DNA from: an uncultured Lachnospiraceae bacterium
Lineage (GTDB): Bacteria; Bacillota; Clostridia; Lachnospirales; Lachnospiraceae
Reading direction: 5' to 3'
Assembly (NCBI GenBank): GCA_902803015.1
Contig: CADCOL010000144.1
Span: 1 to 12,281, forward strand
DNA length: 12,281 nt
Shown one piece after another: positions 15-10,311 of this stretch. A program made the translations under genes and the position numbers. The notes below the pieces were generated by a model. The model did not search any database. It worked only from the letters and a program-made list of their open reading frames with translations, and was not told where the DNA came from. Position 1 is the stretch's first letter, and every line of letters starts with the position of its first letter.

Positions 15-3000
15 TTACTTCTTCATTGCGACTTTCGGCTCATGAACACTCTTCTTTATGGGATCAACAGCTTTTTTCTTTGTATTCTCATAGCGGGAAT
101 TATACAGGTTGGCCAGTTTCGAATCATCTTCTTTTAACAATCTGCGAAGGCTGCCCTGAACATTCCGCTTTATGGATTTCGACATTTTTACGTCTTCATT
201 GAATAATACTTTTATGGATTTTACCAAAGGCTCATCCCTCCGCATATCAACCAGCGCATCATGTCTGTAAGTCTTATCCATGAATTTTATAATATTTCTC
301 GGGTTGAAATCCACATCTCTATGAGTCCTCTCCAGTTCGTTACGGACAATCTTATTATACATCTTCACGGTCGCAGCATTTTTAAAGAATTCGAAGTCCA
401 CGTTTTCCTGCTTGTCAATTACATTATTCAGCTTTTCTTCTTCCATGTCCAGCATTTTGAAGAACGGTCTCGAATGTTCCGGATATTTACCGTATTTTGC
501 CTTATCCGCCAGCATTTCTTCGTAATTCTGCTTCTGGACGGGATCCACTTCCTTAATGTTCTTACACTTGATTTTATAGGAATAGAACTCGTTAATCTTT
601 CTTTGATGATCATCAAAATACTTGTCCATTACCTTATCGGACGTCATATTCTTCTTCCACTCGGGTACCGTGGTGTCATCTTTCAACATCATTCCCCACT
701 GGAAGGTTCCGTTGACGTACTCGAGCTGGTTGATCTTATAATCCTTTAATTCCGGATTCTTATCCATTACCTTTTTCTCGTACGCTTCGGAAATCTTTTT
801 GTACTCTTCTTCATATTCGCGGTTCCTTGCCTCAATGATCTTGTTCATTTTAACATCATTTTCGTACTGGGTCAGTTTATTTATATAATCCCTGTACTCG
901 GCCTTATAATTCTCCACGTCCAGATTGTAGTACTTCACGTCATTCTCGTACTCTTTTACTTCTTCGTCGTATTTTTCTTTTTTCTTATCGTATTCCTCTT
1001 TTTCCTTCTTCCACTGATAATTGTCTAAAACGTACTTGGTTTCCAGATCGTCTTTCTTCTGCTTATAGTCCTTCTCCTCCTCAACCCATTTTGAGTGGTC
1101 CTCATCATACCTTGCTTTCTGCCGTTCATAACCTTCGATTCGCTGGTTTACATTGTTCTGGGCCGTGATTTGAAGTGCATTGATATAATTATCATACTCC
1201 GCGATTTTTTGTTCCAGACTATTGTTCCATTCGTCTGCTTGGCTCTTCTTCTCTTCATACTCCGCTTTCTTTTCATCATATCTTGTCTTCAAAAGATCAT
1301 AATATTTCTGATCTTTTTCGTATGCCTCGTATCTGCGGAGTTCATATTCGTATAAAGTGATTTCCTCCTCGTCCTCTTTCAGTTCAGGCTTCTTTTCTTC
1401 TGCCTGCAGATTCTCATCGTTCAGGGCATCTTCAAGTATGTCCTCCACAACGCTGTAGTTTAAGGCATCACTGTCATTATTCTCAATGACCGCCTCATTA
1501 TTTTCGCCCTCGGAAAGCTTCTCGGAAGGAAGAAGCTGTTTGTCGGAAGCAAGAATCTCGTCTAACTGTTCGTCGTTAAGATTGAGATTAATGCCTGACT
1601 GATCGGGCACCCGCTTCTTAACAATCTTCTTAGCCTTAAGAGCCTCATTGCGATCATACTCTTCTTTTGCCTTAACGTACCGGATATGCTCCGGACTTTT
1701 TACATAGGACTCGCGCACATTGAAAAGATTCTCCATCTTTTCCCTGTAATCTTTCAGTTCTTTGTCATAATCCAAGTTGGCTTTTTCATTCGACGCAAGT
1801 CTCTCACTTAAGCGCGCTTCCTTATTCTCTTCATAATCCGGATTGTCACCGTTCTTTGCCTTATCATCTGCCTCGATCCATTCTTTTACCGGCTCGAGGG
1901 CTTTCTGATATTCTTTCTCCTCCTCTAAATAGGCATTGTATTTCTCAAGATTTTTCTCATACTCTTCCGTAAACTGTTTTTTCAGTTCAGGGGTCTTTTT
2001 GTAATCAAAGGCAAACGGCTCCATGTTGGCGGAATACCAGTTTTTGTCTTCAATATACTTTTTGTATTCCGGAGTCTCTTCATACTCCTTCTTTATCTGC
2101 TCGTTCTTCTCAATAACTTCCTTGTTGCGGGCCTCCCAGTTCTTATGTTCGGTAAGGAACTCCTGATAATCCCTGTCATACTGTTCCCCGAGTCTTTCTT
2201 TCGCCTCTTCATACGCTTCCTTATCCGCTTCGAATTGGATATAGTTTGCCTCGTTGATTGGTTCCAATTCCTTTACCTGTTTCTCGTATTCGGCAAGCTG
2301 TTCCTTGTATGTAGCGTTTTCCCGGAGATATTGTTCCGCCGCTTCATTGAAGCGTTCCATCTCTTTTTGATTATGACGCTCCACTTCCGCATGTCTGAGC
2401 CCGTAATCCATATTTCTTTGAGGCATGGCATCGCGCTCCTGAATCCATGCATTATGGTCGTTTTCCCATTCTCTGTGTCTTTCCTCATACTGACGGACTG
2501 AGGCGCTGCTGAACAACCTTCTGAAAAACCCGGGTCTCTCAGGCTCTGCGGGTTCCGGGCGAAGAACCGGTTTATCCGGATAGACTTCAAAGACAGGCTG
2601 TGCAGGTTCCGCGGGCGGTTTTCCCGGGTAAAAATCCGGCACTTCAAATCTGATTACCGGCGGAAGAGGATGTTTAAATACCGGTTCATTCGGCACCTCG
2701 ATATATTCCGGCTCTTCGGGCGGTTCGGGTCTTTCAAGCACGGGTTTAAAAGGTTCCTCCACGGGAACCGGTTTGCTTACATAAACACGCATAAATCCGG
2801 AAGGGAAAACCGGATCCTTCGCGGAATTAAGCTGCTCTTCCACCTTCTTAATATCATTTTCGACCGACGGAACTTCCGGCTCCTTTAAATCATCCCGGGG
2901 CGGATTCGGTTTTTCAATTTTATCCGGCACTTTAAGAGTAAAGCGGGGAAGAGGAACATCCACGCCTTTGTATTCCGGCTTTACCACATCCGCACTGATG

Positions 3001-3746
3001 CGTTTGAACTCCTCATCAATCAGCTCCTGCTTCGACCTTCCGCCTTCCTGTGGATCCTTCGGAGCTTTGGGTTCCTCACGAAGAGGTTTCAGCTCTTCCA
3101 TTACGGGCATGTCGCGCAAATACTCGTTAAACGGCTTCAGCGGTTTCGGTTTTTGAGGCTCCCTGAACTTAAATTCGCCCGGATGCTTCGGTTCTAAGAG
3201 GTTCTCTTTTTTCTGGTAAATAATATTTCCTTTTTTGTCTCTGGGAAGAAATGCATCATTCAGCTTCAGATACTGATCCATTCCCTTTAACTGTCCGGAA
3301 ATCTGAAATTCTCCCACATTCGGGTTATAACGAAGCTGTCTGGGTTCGGTTTCGCCCAAAGGAATAAACACCAGTCTGCCTTTGGCAAGCTGCTGATACA
3401 AAGCACCCTCCAATGCACCGGCTGCCTGGTGGAACTCCTCTATTTTCTCGGGAGAATCCGGCATCAGACGGATTTCTTCCATTCTTTTCAGGTAATCCTC
3501 TATGGCAAGCTTACCCATTTTGGACGTAGCAACAATCCTTTTCTTTACGTCTTCGGGATCGGCTTCCAAATCAAACCCAAGATTCTCCTTCATAATCTTA
3601 TGAAAGTATTCATGATTCTTGGGATTCTTATAGATTTCCGGCGTTCCGTGATAATCCGCTGCTCTGTTTTCAGTATCCGGAATCGGCGGAAACCATCCGG
3701 GTCTTTGTTTCAAATTATTGGCTGTTAAATTTGTTCTTTTTGGCAT
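15..3746 (-). CDS. Giant coiled-coil protein of unknown function (1243 aa)
   Basis: I do not recognise this protein. Residues 1-180 look folded and mixed in composition. Residues 186-405 are rich in Pro, Glu, Lys and Val, with many PxxP and EPxxP spacings, as in an extended hinge or stalk. Residues 415-700 and 798-995 are highly charged (Glu, Lys, Tyr, Asn) and should form long alpha-helical coiled coils. They are split by an acidic Asn/Asp/Leu-rich linker at about 715-795. Residues 1000-1220 look folded again, and the C-terminus is Lys-rich. Between residues 873 and 961 nearly every heptad carries Tyr or Trp at the same position. I see no signal peptide, transmembrane segment or enzymatic motif, so a cytoplasmic scaffold, cytoskeletal or structural role is an inference only. 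The start is supported by a strong GGGGGAGG site eight bases upstream. It lies downstream of glgCD on the same strand but beyond a terminator-like hairpin. Certain as a gene, unknown in function. Confidence 0.93.
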   Translation of the reverse strand: MPKRTNLTANNLKQRPGWFPPIPDTENRAADYHGTPEIYKNPKNHEYFHKIMKENLGFDLEADPEDVKKRIVATSKMGKLAIEDYLKRMEEIRLMPDSPEKIEEFHQAAGALEGALYQQLAKGRLVFIPLGETEPRQLRYNPNVGEFQISGQLKGMDQYLKLNDAFLPRDKKGNIIYQKKENLLEPKHPGEFKFREPQKPKPLKPFNEYLRDMPVMEELKPLREEPKAPKDPQEGGRSKQELIDEEFKRISADVVKPEYKGVDVPLPRFTLKVPDKIEKPNPPRDDLKEPEVPSVENDIKKVEEQLNSAKDPVFPSGFMRVYVSKPVPVEEPFKPVLERPEPPEEPEYIEVPNEPVFKHPLPPVIRFEVPDFYPGKPPAEPAQPVFEVYPDKPVLRPEPAEPERPGFFRRLFSSASVRQYEERHREWENDHNAWIQERDAMPQRNMDYGLRHAEVERHNQKEMERFNEAAEQYLRENATYKEQLAEYEKQVKELEPINEANYIQFEADKEAYEEAKERLGEQYDRDYQEFLTEHKNWEARNKEVIEKNEQIKKEYEETPEYKKYIEDKNWYSANMEPFAFDYKKTPELKKQFTEEYEKNLEKYNAYLEEEKEYQKALEPVKEWIEADDKAKNGDNPDYEENKEARLSERLASNEKANLDYDKELKDYREKMENLFNVRESYVKSPEHIRYVKAKEEYDRNEALKAKKIVKKRVPDQSGINLNLNDEQLDEILASDKQLLPSEKLSEGENNEAVIENNDSDALNYSVVEDILEDALNDENLQAEEKKPELKEDEEEITLYEYELRRYEAYEKDQKYYDLLKTRYDEKKAEYEEKKSQADEWNNSLEQKIAEYDNYINALQITAQNNVNQRIEGYERQKARYDEDHSKWVEEEKDYKQKKDDLETKYVLDNYQWKKEKEEYDKKKEKYDEEVKEYENDVKYYNLDVENYKAEYRDYINKLTQYENDVKMNKIIEARNREYEEEYKKISEAYEKKVMDKNPELKDYKINQLEYVNGTFQWGMMLKDDTTVPEWKKNMTSDKVMDKYFDDHQRKINEFYSYKIKCKNIKEVDPVQKQNYEEMLADKAKYGKYPEHSRPFFKMLDMEEEKLNNVIDKQENVDFEFFKNAATVKMYNKIVRNELERTHRDVDFNPRNIIKFMDKTYRHDALVDMRRDEPLVKSIKVLFNEDVKMSKSIKRNVQGSLRRLLKEDDSKLANLYNSRYENTKKKAVDPIKKSVHEPKVAMKK

Positions 3747-6647: not shown

Positions 6648-8027
6648 ATGTATGAAATAGATTTCGCAAAACCGATTCATGTTCACTTTATCGGAATCGG
6701 CGGCATCAGCATGAGCGGTCTGGCGATTATCCTCTTAAAAGAAGGATTTACCGTATCGGGATCGGACAATAAGGAATCGGAACTGACCGAAGAACTTCGA
6801 AAAGAAGGCGCAACAGTCTATATCGGGCAGCGCGCGGACAATATTTCCTCCGATATCGATCTGGTTGTGTATTCCGCAGCGATTCGTAAAGATAACCCCG
6901 AATTCGGCGCATCTTTGGAATCCAATCTGCCGATGTTGTCCCGTGCGGAACTTTTGGGACAGATGATGCGAAATTATGCATGTCCGATTGCCATCAGCGG
7001 TACACACGGCAAAACCACCACCTCTTCGATGGCCGGTGAAATCCTCATGGCAAACAATACGGACCCGACCCTTTCCATCGGCGGAATGGTACAGTCCATC
7101 GGCGGAAACATCCGCATCGGCTCCTCCGATTACTTCTTAACGGAAGCCTGTGAGTACACCAACAGCTTCCTCTCCTTCTTCCCCAAATACGGGGTAATTA
7201 TGAATATTGAGGCGGATCATCTGGATTTCTTCAAGGATCTTAACGATATCCGCAATTCATTCCATAAATTCGCACTTCTTTTACCGGAAGACGGCGCATT
7301 AATCATCAACGGCGAAATCGAGAACCTGCAGGAAATCACGGAAGGTGTGAAGGCGAAAATCTATACCTTCGGTTTAAACGACAGCTGCGATTATTACGCA
7401 ACCGACATTGCGTTCAACGCATCCGGCTGTCCCACCTATTGGATGCATTCTCCCGACGGTTCCGTAAGCGATGTGAATCTGGGCGTTGTTGGACGTCATA
7501 ATGTATATAACTCTCTGGCAGCCCTGGTGCTTTCCGACGTATTGAAGTTCGACCGCGAAAAGAGCCTCGCGGCACTGAGTAAATGCATCGGCGCCGACAG
7601 AAGATTCCAGATTAAAGGACATCTCGGAGACATTACCATCGTAGACGATTACGCACATCATCCTACGGAAATTTCCGCCACACTGGCCGCGGCAAAGAAT
7701 TTCCCGCATAAGGAAACCTGGTGCGTATTCCAGCCCCATACCTACTCAAGAACGAAAGCACTGCTTGCAGACTTCGCAGAGGCATTAAAGGCAGCGGACC
7801 ATGTTGTTCTCGCCGACATTTATGCCGCGCGCGAGACCGACACCCTGGGAATCTCTTCGAAAAACCTGCAGGAAGAAATCGTAAAACGTGGCGGAGATTG
7901 CCGGTTTTTCCATAGTTTTTCGGAAATTGAAATTTTTTTACTGCAAAGTTGTAACCCGGGTGATCTGTTGATAACTATGGGCGCCGGAGACGTGTACCGC
8001 GTAGGAGAAGAGCTTCTTGGAAACTAG
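6648..8027 (+). CDS. murC: UDP-N-acetylmuramate--L-alanine ligase MurC
   Basis: MurC joins L-alanine to UDP-MurNAc at the cost of ATP, the first peptide-adding step of peptidoglycan precursor synthesis in the cytoplasm. The 459 residues match the family length and three-domain plan. The N-terminal UDP-binding domain has the FIGIGGISMSGLA stretch (14-26). The central ATPase domain has the P-loop GTHGKTTT (118-125), EACEY (166-170) and NIEADHLD (186-193), which include the metal- and carbamate-region residues expected of Mur ligases. The C-terminal domain has DDYAHHPTE (333-341), QPHTYSRT (362-369) and MGAGDVY (444-450). All key motifs are intact. It has its own promoter and a probable terminator after it, so it is likely a single-gene unit, with some read-through into the following primosome genes possible. 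Confidence 0.98.
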   Translation: MYEIDFAKPIHVHFIGIGGISMSGLAIILLKEGFTVSGSDNKESELTEELRKEGATVYIGQRADNISSDIDLVVYSAAIRKDNPEFGASLESNLPMLSRAELLGQMMRNYACPIAISGTHGKTTTSSMAGEILMANNTDPTLSIGGMVQSIGGNIRIGSSDYFLTEACEYTNSFLSFFPKYGVIMNIEADHLDFFKDLNDIRNSFHKFALLLPEDGALIINGEIENLQEITEGVKAKIYTFGLNDSCDYYATDIAFNASGCPTYWMHSPDGSVSDVNLGVVGRHNVYNSLAALVLSDVLKFDREKSLAALSKCIGADRRFQIKGHLGDITIVDDYAHHPTEISATLAAAKNFPHKETWCVFQPHTYSRTKALLADFAEALKAADHVVLADIYAARETDTLGISSKNLQEEIVKRGGDCRFFHSFSEIEIFLLQSCNPGDLLITMGAGDVYRVGEELLGN

Positions 8028-8133
8028 TTATCCACAATATCCACATACATTTTCGCAAAACCGGCAAAAATGCAATGTGGATATTTTTATGCCGATTTTA
8101 CTGGAAAAATGACAGTTATCCACACTGTCCACA
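8028..8133. promoter_or_regulatory. DnaA-box cluster upstream of the primosome genes
   Basis: Five DnaA-box-like 9-mers lie in 106 bases. There are two perfect TTATCCACA at 8028-8036 and 8116-8124. Each is followed with no gap by a weaker copy: ATATCCACA at 8037-8045 (one mismatch) and CTGTCCACA at 8125-8133 (two mismatches from TTATCCACA). One inverted ATATCCACA lies at 8076-8084. The first box begins at the base after the murC stop codon. Such clusters are known at replication origins, at DnaA-regulated promoters and at titration sites. No dnaA or dnaN gene is in the window, so a regulatory or titration role at the promoter of the helicase-loading genes is the more likely reading. The boxes are seen directly; the role is inferred. 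Confidence 0.75.
8057..8099 (+). terminator. Probable intrinsic terminator of murC
   Basis: AAAA-C-CGGC-AAAAAT (8057-8071) pairs with ATTTTT-AT-GCCG-A-TTTT (8083-8099), leaving a C/A mismatch and a two-base bulge. The 3' arm ends in a short T run. It begins 30 bases after the murC stop. Its loop and the start of its 3' arm hold the inverted DnaA-like box (8076-8084), and its 3' arm can instead pair with downstream sequence, so it may be conditional. Confidence 0.5.
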
Positions 8134-8156
8134 ATCGGCAGAAACCCAGTAAAATC
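8094..8156. repeat. 11-bp perfect inverted repeat enclosing a DnaA-box pair
   Basis: GATTTTACTGG (8094-8104) and CCAGTAAAATC (8146-8156) are perfect inverted copies. The 41 bases between them contain the second abutting pair of DnaA boxes. A smaller repeat, GACAG (8111-8115) and CTGTC (8125-8129), frames the perfect box exactly. GCCGAT (8091-8096) can also pair with ATCGGC (8134-8139), so several folds compete with each other and with the murC terminator. Confidence 0.65.
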
Positions 8157-8199
8157 AAGGCTTTGCGCCAATTTTCCTATTCCCTTTTTGAAAACGGCA

Positions 8200-8208
8200 T
8201 GCTATAAT
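8200..8208 (+). promoter_or_regulatory. Predicted extended -10 promoter of the dnaD-like operon
   Basis: TGCTATAAT is a perfect -10 hexamer (8203-8208) preceded by the TG of an extended -10 element. The -35 position (8180-8185, TTCCCT) is poor, as is usual for extended -10 promoters. Transcription would start near 8215, giving a leader of about 30 bases. The DnaA boxes end about 70 bases upstream of the -10 element, a position open to either activation or repression. Confidence 0.65.
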
Positions 8209-8243
8209 CACAATGCTCAAATGAAAATTGGGGGAATATGGTA

Positions 8244-9326
8244 ATGAATCGTATCACATTGACCGGCGATGACAGACCGGGAGCCACTTCGGTTTCCAAC
8301 GTGTTCATCGATTATTACATGAAAGAGGCGAACGATGCCCAGATCAAGGTTTACCTGTATCTGCTTCGCAATATGGCCGCTCATCGCTCTTTCGAAATCG
8401 GAGACATCGCCGATGAGTTTAATCATACAGAGAAGGATGTCATCCGTGCCTTAAAGTACTGGGAGAAGGAAGGACTGCTTGCTCTCCATTACGACGAGAC
8501 CGGAGAAATCAACGCAATTAATTTAATCACCGCAACAAAGAAAACCGAATTAAACAGCCGCGAAGCAGCCGTATCGGTTGCCGCACCGGTCCTTTCCATT
8601 GTACCGGCCGTGGAAAAGAAACCGGTTTTGGAGAAAAAACCGGAACCCGCAAAACCGTCCGCACCGGAGAAACCTTCCTACGGAGCCGATGATTTAAGAG
8701 CATTCAAAGCAGAAGCCCGTACCGAAGAGCTGATTGCCGTTACGGAATCGTATCTCGGCAAAACCATCAGTCCGAGCGACTTAAGAAGTTTACTCTACAT
8801 CCATAAAGAACTCGGCTTTGATTTCGAAATGATGGATCTTCTGCTTCAGTACTGCGTTTCCAAGAACAAGAAGAGTTTCCATTACATCGAAAGCATTGCC
8901 GTATCCTGGTTTGAACAGGGCATTAAAACACCCGCTCAGGCCAAAGACGGCATTTCCAAATATGACCACAGCATAAAGGACATCATGGCAGCGCTCGGCA
9001 AGAATGCCGCACCCACGATGAAAGAATCGGAGTTCATCAACCGCTGGCTCGGAACCTACGCATTCCCCAAGGAAGTAATCCTGGCAGCCTGCGAAAGAAC
9101 CGTTCTGAAAACCGATACCGACCGCTTCCCTTACGCGGAGGGTATTTTAAGCAAATGGAACGAACAGAATTTAAAATCTTTAGCCGCCGTGGAAGCCTCC
9201 GAGGAAGAATACCGCAGGAATAAAAAGAACGTACCGATTCGTCCGGTAAATGATTCGAAATACAATCAGTACACAAGAACCAAATACGATTTTGCAGCAT
9301 TGGAACAATACATCAAAGAGAACTGA
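8244..9326 (+). CDS. DnaD-domain helicase-loading (primosome) protein
   Basis: This protein should act with the following ATPase to load the replicative helicase at origins and at restart sites. The 360 residues contain an N-terminal winged-helix region (about 15-95) and a Pro/Lys/Ala-rich linker (about 100-148). Two tandem copies of the DnaD/DnaB C-terminal domain (DnaB_2 type) follow. The signature YxxxIxxxW appears in both: Y214, I218, W222 and Y297, I301, W305. Two copies make it longer than Bacillus DnaD (about 230 residues), so I give no symbol. A basic segment and the KYDFAALEQYI tail end it. I chose the ATG at 8244 because the GGGGG site (8230-8234) is nine bases away. The in-frame ATG at 8238 is only three bases from it but cannot be excluded. 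The next gene follows 13 bases downstream. Confidence 0.9.
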   Translation: MNRITLTGDDRPGATSVSNVFIDYYMKEANDAQIKVYLYLLRNMAAHRSFEIGDIADEFNHTEKDVIRALKYWEKEGLLALHYDETGEINAINLITATKKTELNSREAAVSVAAPVLSIVPAVEKKPVLEKKPEPAKPSAPEKPSYGADDLRAFKAEARTEELIAVTESYLGKTISPSDLRSLLYIHKELGFDFEMMDLLLQYCVSKNKKSFHYIESIAVSWFEQGIKTPAQAKDGISKYDHSIKDIMAALGKNAAPTMKESEFINRWLGTYAFPKEVILAACERTVLKTDTDRFPYAEGILSKWNEQNLKSLAAVEASEEEYRRNKKNVPIRPVNDSKYNQYTRTKYDFAALEQYIKEN

Positions 9327-9339
9327 TTCGAAATAAACC

Positions 9340-10311
9340 ATGAATTTATCAAGTGCGGAATATACCGAACTTTTAAACGAATATAAAGCAAGGCAGCTTC
9401 AAAACGAACAGATTCTGGTTGCTCGCAGGGAAGAAGTCTATGCACGAATTCCACGCTATAAGGAGATGGAGGAAGAATTAATTACTCTCTCCGCCGAAAA
9501 AGCCCGTGCCATGATCCGCAAGGATTCCGAAAAGGTTTCGAAGCTGGATGAACAGCTTGAGGACCTGCAAAGAGATCAGAAGCTCTTATTAACAAGTGCC
9601 GGATACTCCATTAACTATCTGGATCCGCAGTATTCCTGCCCTTATTGCAAGGATACCGGATTTATCGACGGTGCACGCTGCCACTGCTTTAAGCAGGCCA
9701 TTCTTGACCGCATTTACGAACAAAGCAGCATCAAAGAACAGCTCGCTTTGGAAAATTTCGAAACGCTTCGTCACGACTTTCAGGTAGGAGAAGCTTCCAG
9801 GGATTTTGAAAAGGCCGTTTCCAAGGCCAGAAATTTTGCAGATCTTTTTGGCACACGCTATGCCAATATCTGCTTTACGGGTTCGGTGGGAACCGGCAAG
9901 ACCTTCCTTTCGAACTGTATCGTTAACGAGGTGCTCAAGAAAGGATATTCCTGCATCTATTTCAGCGCACCCACGCTGTTTAACACGATTTCCGATTACA
10001 AGTTCCATAACAAATACGACAACGGATCGGAGAATCCGTTAAACGCGATTAAATCCTGCGACCTGCTCGTCATTGACGATCTCGGCACGGAATTATCCAA
10101 TTCCTTCTCCACCGCCGAACTTTTAAATCTGTTAAACGAGCGGTATTTAGCCAAAAAGCCCATTGTAATCAGCACGAATCTTTCACTGGAAGATTTATGC
10201 TCCCGCTACACGGACCGTGTATTCTCAAGGCTTTTTGCTCAATTTGAAATCTGTACATTGTCCGGTCAGGACATCAGATTATATATCAAACAAATGCAAA
10301 ACAGAAAGTGA
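9340..10311 (+). CDS. dnaI: Helicase loader ATPase, DnaI/DnaC type
   Basis: This is an AAA+ ATPase of the DnaC/DnaI/IstB group, 323 residues. The N-terminal part (1-85) is a charged helical region. A Zn-binding cluster follows with C100, C103, C114 and C116, as in Firmicute DnaI. The ATPase domain shows Walker A GSVGTGKT (181-188), Walker B LLVIDDLG (242-249), sensor-1 STN (278-280) and an Arg-containing stretch CSRYTDRVFSRL (287-298) with the likely arginine finger. Its place directly after a DnaD-domain gene, and the absence of any transposase, argue for a chromosomal helicase loader rather than an IstB transposition helper. The ribosome binding site is weak (AAAGAG overlapping the end of the previous gene), so coupled translation is likely. 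Confidence 0.9.
   Translation: MNLSSAEYTELLNEYKARQLQNEQILVARREEVYARIPRYKEMEEELITLSAEKARAMIRKDSEKVSKLDEQLEDLQRDQKLLLTSAGYSINYLDPQYSCPYCKDTGFIDGARCHCFKQAILDRIYEQSSIKEQLALENFETLRHDFQVGEASRDFEKAVSKARNFADLFGTRYANICFTGSVGTGKTFLSNCIVNEVLKKGYSCIYFSAPTLFNTISDYKFHNKYDNGSENPLNAIKSCDLLVIDDLGTELSNSFSTAELLNLLNERYLAKKPIVISTNLSLEDLCSRYTDRVFSRLFAQFEICTLSGQDIRLYIKQMQNRK

Follow-up and report, generated by a model that had tools for sequence, protein, structure and literature searches.

In Bacillus subtilis, clusters of DnaA boxes lie between genes, and several of them act on the adjacent promoter (sda, yqeG, ywlC, ywcI/vpr, yydA, trmE and gcp/ydiF; PMC4447404, PMC8203912). DnaA appears to be a repressor of several operons in this organism and is an activator of sda (PMC4447404), and its direct regulon has been described as comprising eight gene sets (PMC8203912). 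In Caulobacter crescentus, DnaA boxes are predicted upstream of dnaQ and dnaB, both of which belong to the DnaA regulon, and DnaA is reported to regulate the latter, the replicative helicase gene (PMC8203912). The DnaA protein of Escherichia coli prefers boxes that are 2-3 bp apart, and such double boxes occur at the replication-linked targets polA, purH, nrdA and mutH/DARS2 (PMC11317965). The same species carries datA, a box cluster away from the origin at which read-through transcription is reported to matter (PMC10950094), and where, together with IHF, hydrolysis of DnaA-ATP is promoted (PMC5295017).

The locus described here, the spacer between murC and a dnaD-like gene in a member of the Lachnospiraceae, shares features with each of these systems and differs from each. 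Like the B. subtilis clusters, it is an intergenic group of boxes next to a promoter, but it stands at other genes, as dnaD, dnaB and dnaI are all missing from the B. subtilis lists given in PMC4447404 and PMC8203912, and it includes a predicted terminator, a word absent from PMC4447404. It recalls Caulobacter dnaB in its proximity to helicase function, but the gene there specifies the helicase itself, while here DnaD and a loader are concerned, and the available description of dnaB includes neither a terminator nor abutted pairs of boxes. As in the E. coli double boxes, two boxes lie close together, but with a gap of 0 bp instead of 2-3 bp (PMC11317965). Like datA it appears to be a non-origin cluster, the action with IHF being described for datA. 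DnaA boxes at murC-dnaD, or in Lachnospiraceae, were not described in the titles or abstract openings searched.

The murC-dnaD spacer

The window, meaning the whole stretch of 12,281 nucleotides analysed, comes from an assembly of 1.9 Mb in 330 contigs that is 76.75% complete. No dnaA above the family cut-off was found in this assembly and, because it is incomplete and without a dnaA match, relatives were used for comparison. The features in and around the spacer are as follows.

6648..8027, plus strand: murC, recognised by Mur ligase N-terminal, middle and C-terminal domains and its open reading frame; the stop codon adjoins box 1
8028..8036, plus strand: DnaA box 1, a perfect TTATCCACA, directly after the murC stop
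8037..8045, plus strand: DnaA box 2, ATATCCACA, one mismatch, abutting box 1; also the 5' arm of the terminator
8036..8085, plus strand: hairpin of the predicted murC intrinsic terminator (folded from box 1 onward, the stretch has -17.9 kcal/mol)
8076..8084, minus strand: inverted DnaA box, ATATCCACA; also the 3' arm of the terminator
8084..8088, plus strand: T-run of the terminator, read from the sequence
8116..8124, plus strand: DnaA box 4, a perfect TTATCCACA, first box of the second pair
8125..8133, plus strand: DnaA box 5, CTGTCCACA, two mismatches, ending 69 bp before the -10
8145..8160, plus strand: conserved block CCCAGTAAAATCAAGG, between pair 2 and the -10
8200..8208, plus strand: extended -10, TGCTATAAT, taken as the dnaD-dnaI promoter
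8238..9326, plus strand: dnaD-like gene, with a DnaB_2 domain (PF07261, E=1.6e-38)
9340..10311, plus strand: dnaI/dnaC-like helicase loader, with AAA+ matches (IstB_IS21, Bac_DnaA)

The gene calls of the preliminary description (murC, a DnaD-domain gene and a DnaI-type gene) agreed with these domain matches. An ATG at 8244 is also a possible start of the dnaD-like gene, and many relatives align from residue 2-3. At the other end of the window, positions 15-3746 (minus strand) encode a charged, repetitive-looking protein of 1243 aa without a Pfam match at E<=0.001.

The two perfect TTATCCACA sites had been placed 88 bases apart, start to start, each abutted without a gap by a weaker box on the same strand, and with an inverted box between the pairs. 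Positions and distance were correct, the weaker boxes carry one and two mismatches, and the inverted box is present. A DnaA-box cluster has been defined as three or more boxes that are less than 100 bp apart on average (PMC7561715), a density that the spacer reaches, with four boxes of at most one mismatch at 8028-8124 and a fifth, of two mismatches, at 8125. Counted across the window at <=1 mismatch, however, there are 6 box matches where 2.9 would be expected, a number equalled or exceeded by 16 of 200 shuffles, so that the window taken alone is just mildly unusual. The earlier judgement that the cluster is unlikely by chance thus gains its weight from the two perfect copies and from conservation, not from this count. 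In the window's own genome the perfect site occurs 28 times and the reversed pattern 5 times, and two perfect sites within 200 bp of each other occur in three places, namely contigs C88 and C101 and the murC-dnaD spacer.

Conservation among relatives

A dnaD homologue was present in 97 of the 99 genomes searched, and 90 of these loci were taken (left out were G039, G072, G074, G077, G084, G087 and G090). Removal of three without a local dnaD match and six without murC gave 81 spacers from the window's order, including three of more than 800 bp that were retained. Together they carry 146 perfect TTATCCACA sites, compared with 0.45 in shuffles, and 321 boxes at <=1 mismatch, compared with 8.1. 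A perfect box was found in 64 spacers and at least two boxes in 71, these being all 30 from the window's genus and 41 of the 51 from other genera. The positions of the boxes also recur. Relative to the murC stop, a box (<=1 mismatch) stands at +1 to +3 in 55 of the 81 spacers and is perfect in 34, another stands at +9 to +12 in 52, an inverted box at +47 to +52 in 36, and an abutted pair (<=1 mismatch each) beyond +70 in 36. In the nearest subclade (eight genomes, window included) box 1 is invariant and an alignment shows that box 1, the terminator arms and the -10 hardly vary while the interior of the hairpin drifts; pair 2 has decayed in three of the eight (L030, L033 and L034). Relatives that keep the gene order and lose the boxes had been named in advance as a refuting observation; there are ten such spacers among the 81, five of them of 55 bp or less, compared with the 71 that hold at least two boxes.

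A scan for the exact succession of abutted pair, inverted box and T-run, with one genome per species, recovered at least 119 loci. Among the matches listed, 118 of 119 were at murC and/or dnaD (111 at both, 5 at murC alone, 2 at dnaD alone and 1 at neither), and the records were mostly of Lachnospiraceae or of genera of that family. For other orders of the class, 26 dnaD loci were drawn from 123 genomes with a match and about 1.1-1.5 kb upstream was searched; all 26 were without a box pair and without a murC match upstream, and three had a single 1-mismatch box upstream of dnaD. Three loci within the order at which the linkage is broken (L094, L103 and L104) had no box within 900 bp of dnaD. 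The idea that boxes simply travel with dnaD is therefore unsupported. Given the absence of both box pair and murC at dnaD in other orders, the cluster seems, among the genomes examined, to have arisen within this lineage and to be tied to the gene junction and not to dnaD generally.

A terminator built from DnaA boxes

At the end of murC, box 2 and the inverted box form the arms of a hairpin that is followed by a T-run, the layout of an intrinsic terminator. After the murC stop, 49 of the 81 spacers have a CCACA...TGTGG word pair, which in most cases is supplied by box 2 and the inverted box. Although the sequence of the inner stem changes from genome to genome, it pairs better than shuffles in 46 of the 49 (p<=0.05), and at least six T occur within 12 nt after the arm in 48 of the 49. 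A simple terminator scan of the window did not report the hairpin, as its rule admits only loop lengths of 3-8 and asks for a T-run that begins 0-2 bases beyond the stem, and the spacer had no Rfam match at gathering scores. Judged by pairing and T-run, DnaA-box words double as the stem of the predicted murC intrinsic terminator, and this is kept across many genera. The preliminary description was right about the boxes of the cluster but overlooked this second use. A free third site, as which the inverted box could be counted, is mostly explained as a terminator arm that pairs with box 2.

The dnaD promoter

The extended -10 word TG[CT]TATAAT was found in 36 of the 81 spacers and was absent from one shuffle of each. 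No promoter at 8200 was listed by a sigma-70 scan of the window, which requires a -35 match. With the last box of the second cluster picked by a loose rule, the distance from its end to the -10 could be taken in 48 spacers. In 23 of them, 13 of the window's genus and 10 of other genera, it is 67-70 bp, a preferred spacing of the kind expected at a DnaA-regulated promoter; in the other 25 it falls outside this range. Measurement was not possible in 33 of the 81, 26 having no -10 word and seven no box. In all eight genomes of the nearest subclade (window included) the distance is 69 bp, with the sequence between varying. Part of the intervening sequence, the block CCCAGTAAAATCAAGG, is largely conserved in the eight-genome alignment, and AGTAAAATCAAGG occurs in 10 of the 81 spacers; no known motif was recognised in the block.

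Abutted pairs at other loci

Across the 99 genomes, 93 abutted near-perfect pairs were counted, with 54 at murC-dnaD (in 38 genomes), 7 at dnaA (six of these from one genome) and 32 elsewhere, the locus labels having been assigned by hand from site and gene positions. Equally dense clusters in many spacers, which had also been named in advance as a refuting observation, were thus not seen, either in the window's own genome, with its three places, or among the relatives, where 54 of the 93 pairs share one junction. The pairs elsewhere represent 29 loci, and 21 of these plus two from the window's own genome were covered (left out were two in G025, and those in G021, G028, G024 and G091). The gene downstream of the pair is presumably hpf, for a ribosome-hibernation factor, in 11 of the 21 other loci and also on the window's own contig C88, where the pair (L006 2940-2957) is perfect. 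On contig C101, boxes (L009 3024 and 3185) lie upstream of a parA-like gene, within what we take to be the gene order mnmG-rsmG-parA-parB-like. In other orders (L197, L189-L192, L211, L187, L204 and L209), abutted pairs are found beside the 3' end of a DnaB-type helicase gene, SBP_bac_3 solute-binding genes, tsaD or rho, hinting at further lineage-specific targets of DnaA.

Proposed role of the cluster

The reading we prefer, with a probability of roughly 0.6, is that the spacer is a lineage-specific, DnaA-bound control region for dnaD-dnaI that has become fused to the terminator of murC. What we observe directly are the boxes and how well they are conserved, the structure of the terminator, a favoured distance to the promoter and, as far as the genomes examined go, confinement to one lineage; from these we infer binding by DnaA, regulation and its sign, and a roadblock to transcription. 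DnaA would occupy both abutted pairs. The first of these lies right at the end of murC, and in the RNA, box 2 and the inverted box would fold as the terminator hairpin at which murC transcription ends; bound DnaA would also act as a roadblock to murC transcription before the dnaD promoter is reached, and the first pair and terminator would together insulate that promoter from murC. The second pair, at its preferred 67-70 bp from the -10, would adjust the dnaD-dnaI promoter. The sign is most likely repression by DnaA, a choice guided by B. subtilis, in which DnaA apparently represses several of its targets (PMC4447404). Synthesis of the helicase loader would then be tuned to free DnaA and would rise once DnaA is titrated or the site has been replicated, while the sites would soak up DnaA as well.

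The suggestion made at the outset, that DnaA sets the supply of its own downstream partners, is partly supported: throughout the order the cluster tends to be kept together with murC-dnaD, comparable clusters are few, and the preferred distance to the dnaD promoter fits such control, but ten of the 81 spacers have lost the boxes. Control is also supported by the nearest subclade, in which there is little variation in the cluster 1 boxes although the inside of the hairpin changes, with its pairing kept, and the membership of dnaB in the Caulobacter regulon, as described in PMC8203912, offers a precedent for DnaA control near helicase function. Counted against it are the 0-bp gap within pairs, which is neither the spacing favoured by E. 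coli DnaA nor the usual one at dnaA loci, the 25 of 48 spacers with other -10 distances and the 33 of 81 that gave no measurement, the decay of pair 2, the absence of dnaD, dnaB and dnaI from the B. subtilis list, and the lack of a promoter at 8200 in the sigma-70 output. As the 26 dnaD loci of other orders are without a box pair, such control would not be general.

Alternative explanations

The main rival is that the cluster is a titration site for DnaA, like the B. subtilis clusters and E. coli datA, and that the dnaD promoter is incidental to it. In that form it is somewhat unlikely, and it may hold together with regulation by DnaA. The excess of abutted near-perfect pairs at murC-dnaD over those at dnaA (54 against 7) and the further pairs upstream of the presumed hpf genes are in its favour. 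Early initiation in B. subtilis when six such clusters are missing (PMC5295017) points the same way. A sink, however, needs no link to one gene junction and does not account for the preferred distance to the dnaD -10. The distance from dnaA is also uneven: five genomes that carry the two loci on a single contig gave 45, 138, 142, 250 and 883 kb, and a sixth, which has a weak cluster, gave 1.26 Mb (Butyrivibrio fibrisolvens 16/4, a draft in which the dnaA frame is interrupted, was left out).

It is improbable that the boxes are read not by DnaA but by another protein that recognises 9-bp direct repeats, an explanation that draws on the geometry of the pairs. Of the pairs of perfect boxes, again assigned to loci by hand, 37 of 44 at murC-dnaD are abutted compared with 3 of 35 at dnaA, where 17 of the 35 are 2-3 bp apart; 24 of the 35 come from three genomes (G046, G097 and G075), and of the other 11, eight are at 2-3 bp and one abuts. 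The window, like those 37 pairs, thus departs from the E. coli type of double box. Set against this, the 9-mer and its variants match those at dnaA loci, with TTATGCACA, TTATCAACA and TTATACACA common to both places, which is what DnaA boxes should show; abutted pairs are present at the dnaA locus of G046, and in 10 of the 81 spacers a third box follows the pair after a 3-bp gap. There are two options, a different mode of DnaA binding at abutted pairs or a share of the binding taken by some other protein; the variants argue for DnaA. The dnaA region of G046 (L135) is very dense in boxes, with 25 upstream and 11 downstream at <=1 mismatch.

That the element is a murC terminator alone, and the likeness of its arms to DnaA boxes a by-product, is very improbable: the arms do pair and a T-run comes next, but the hairpin does not include box 1 or pair 2, both of which recur, the DnaA word is preserved in the arms although the stem inside them changes, and the full signature is, among the matches listed, almost confined to the murC-dnaD junction.

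A second replication origin or melting site, which the preliminary description had raised and which the closeness of the cluster to helicase-loader genes might favour, is scarcely credible and is rejected on skew in one closed relative, G096, where GC skew and gene strand change sign at 1.915-1.930 Mb, by dnaA (1.913 Mb), and where 20 sampled stretches gave no flip of skew or strand at murC-dnaD (2.164 Mb, 250 kb from dnaA). A DnaA-trio-like run beside a box was found in none of the 81 spacers, a weak result since the same test scored just 2 of 30 dnaA loci and is therefore insensitive. The murC-dnaD locus is head-on to a dnaA origin in five of six genomes (G096, G081, G035, G085 and Blautia parvula) and co-directional with it in Clostridium sp. 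Marseille-P2415; as skew was checked in G096 alone, no claim is made on orientation relative to replication.

A second repeat between the pairs

The word TT[TAC]ACATAA occurs in 38 of the 81 spacers and in none of one shuffle each, and it is located just after the terminator in those inspected. Among 27 spacers picked by hand, TTTACATAA is followed by an inverted TTATGT at a gap of 48-49 bp in 14 and of 59-60 bp in two. All 16 are from the window's genus and have the repeat between the two box pairs (e.g. L035, L054 and L057); spacers of other genera either have a longer gap or no inverted copy, and the window's own subclade is without the TTTACATAA element. Distances from pair to pair cluster near 79, 90-92, 135-136, 146, 155-158 and 167 bp, a step of about 11 bp (R=0.63 over 18 distinct values) that was noticed post hoc, after seven periods had been tried, and from which the values 99, 111, 131, 141, 144 and 180 depart. 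Such a step would be compatible with a complex built along a single face of the helix, but is only suggestive.

These repeats could belong to a more far-reaching arrangement, which we consider unlikely, in which the junction is a rigid, order-specific nucleoprotein switch resembling datA or DARS: DnaA would sit on the two abutted pairs, a second, putative protein on TTTACATAA...TTATGT in much of the window's genus, and read-through from murC past the box-made terminator would strip or reset the complex. Its odds were lowered slightly because all 16 spaced repeats are from one genus, so that shared ancestry may explain their spacing.

Significance

The murC-dnaD junction provides a concrete case in which genes for helicase loaders may be under the control of the initiator that they serve, a link that is absent from the B. 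subtilis regulon as listed in PMC8203912, where control of the helicase gene is reported for Caulobacter. It also presents a dual-use element, with DnaA boxes predicted to serve as the stem of an intrinsic terminator, and the abutted geometry raises the question of whether DnaA can fill two boxes without a gap between them. If the junction were the switch outlined above, the supply of cell-wall precursors would be linked to the supply of helicase loader and to initiation. The order concerned includes common gut bacteria.
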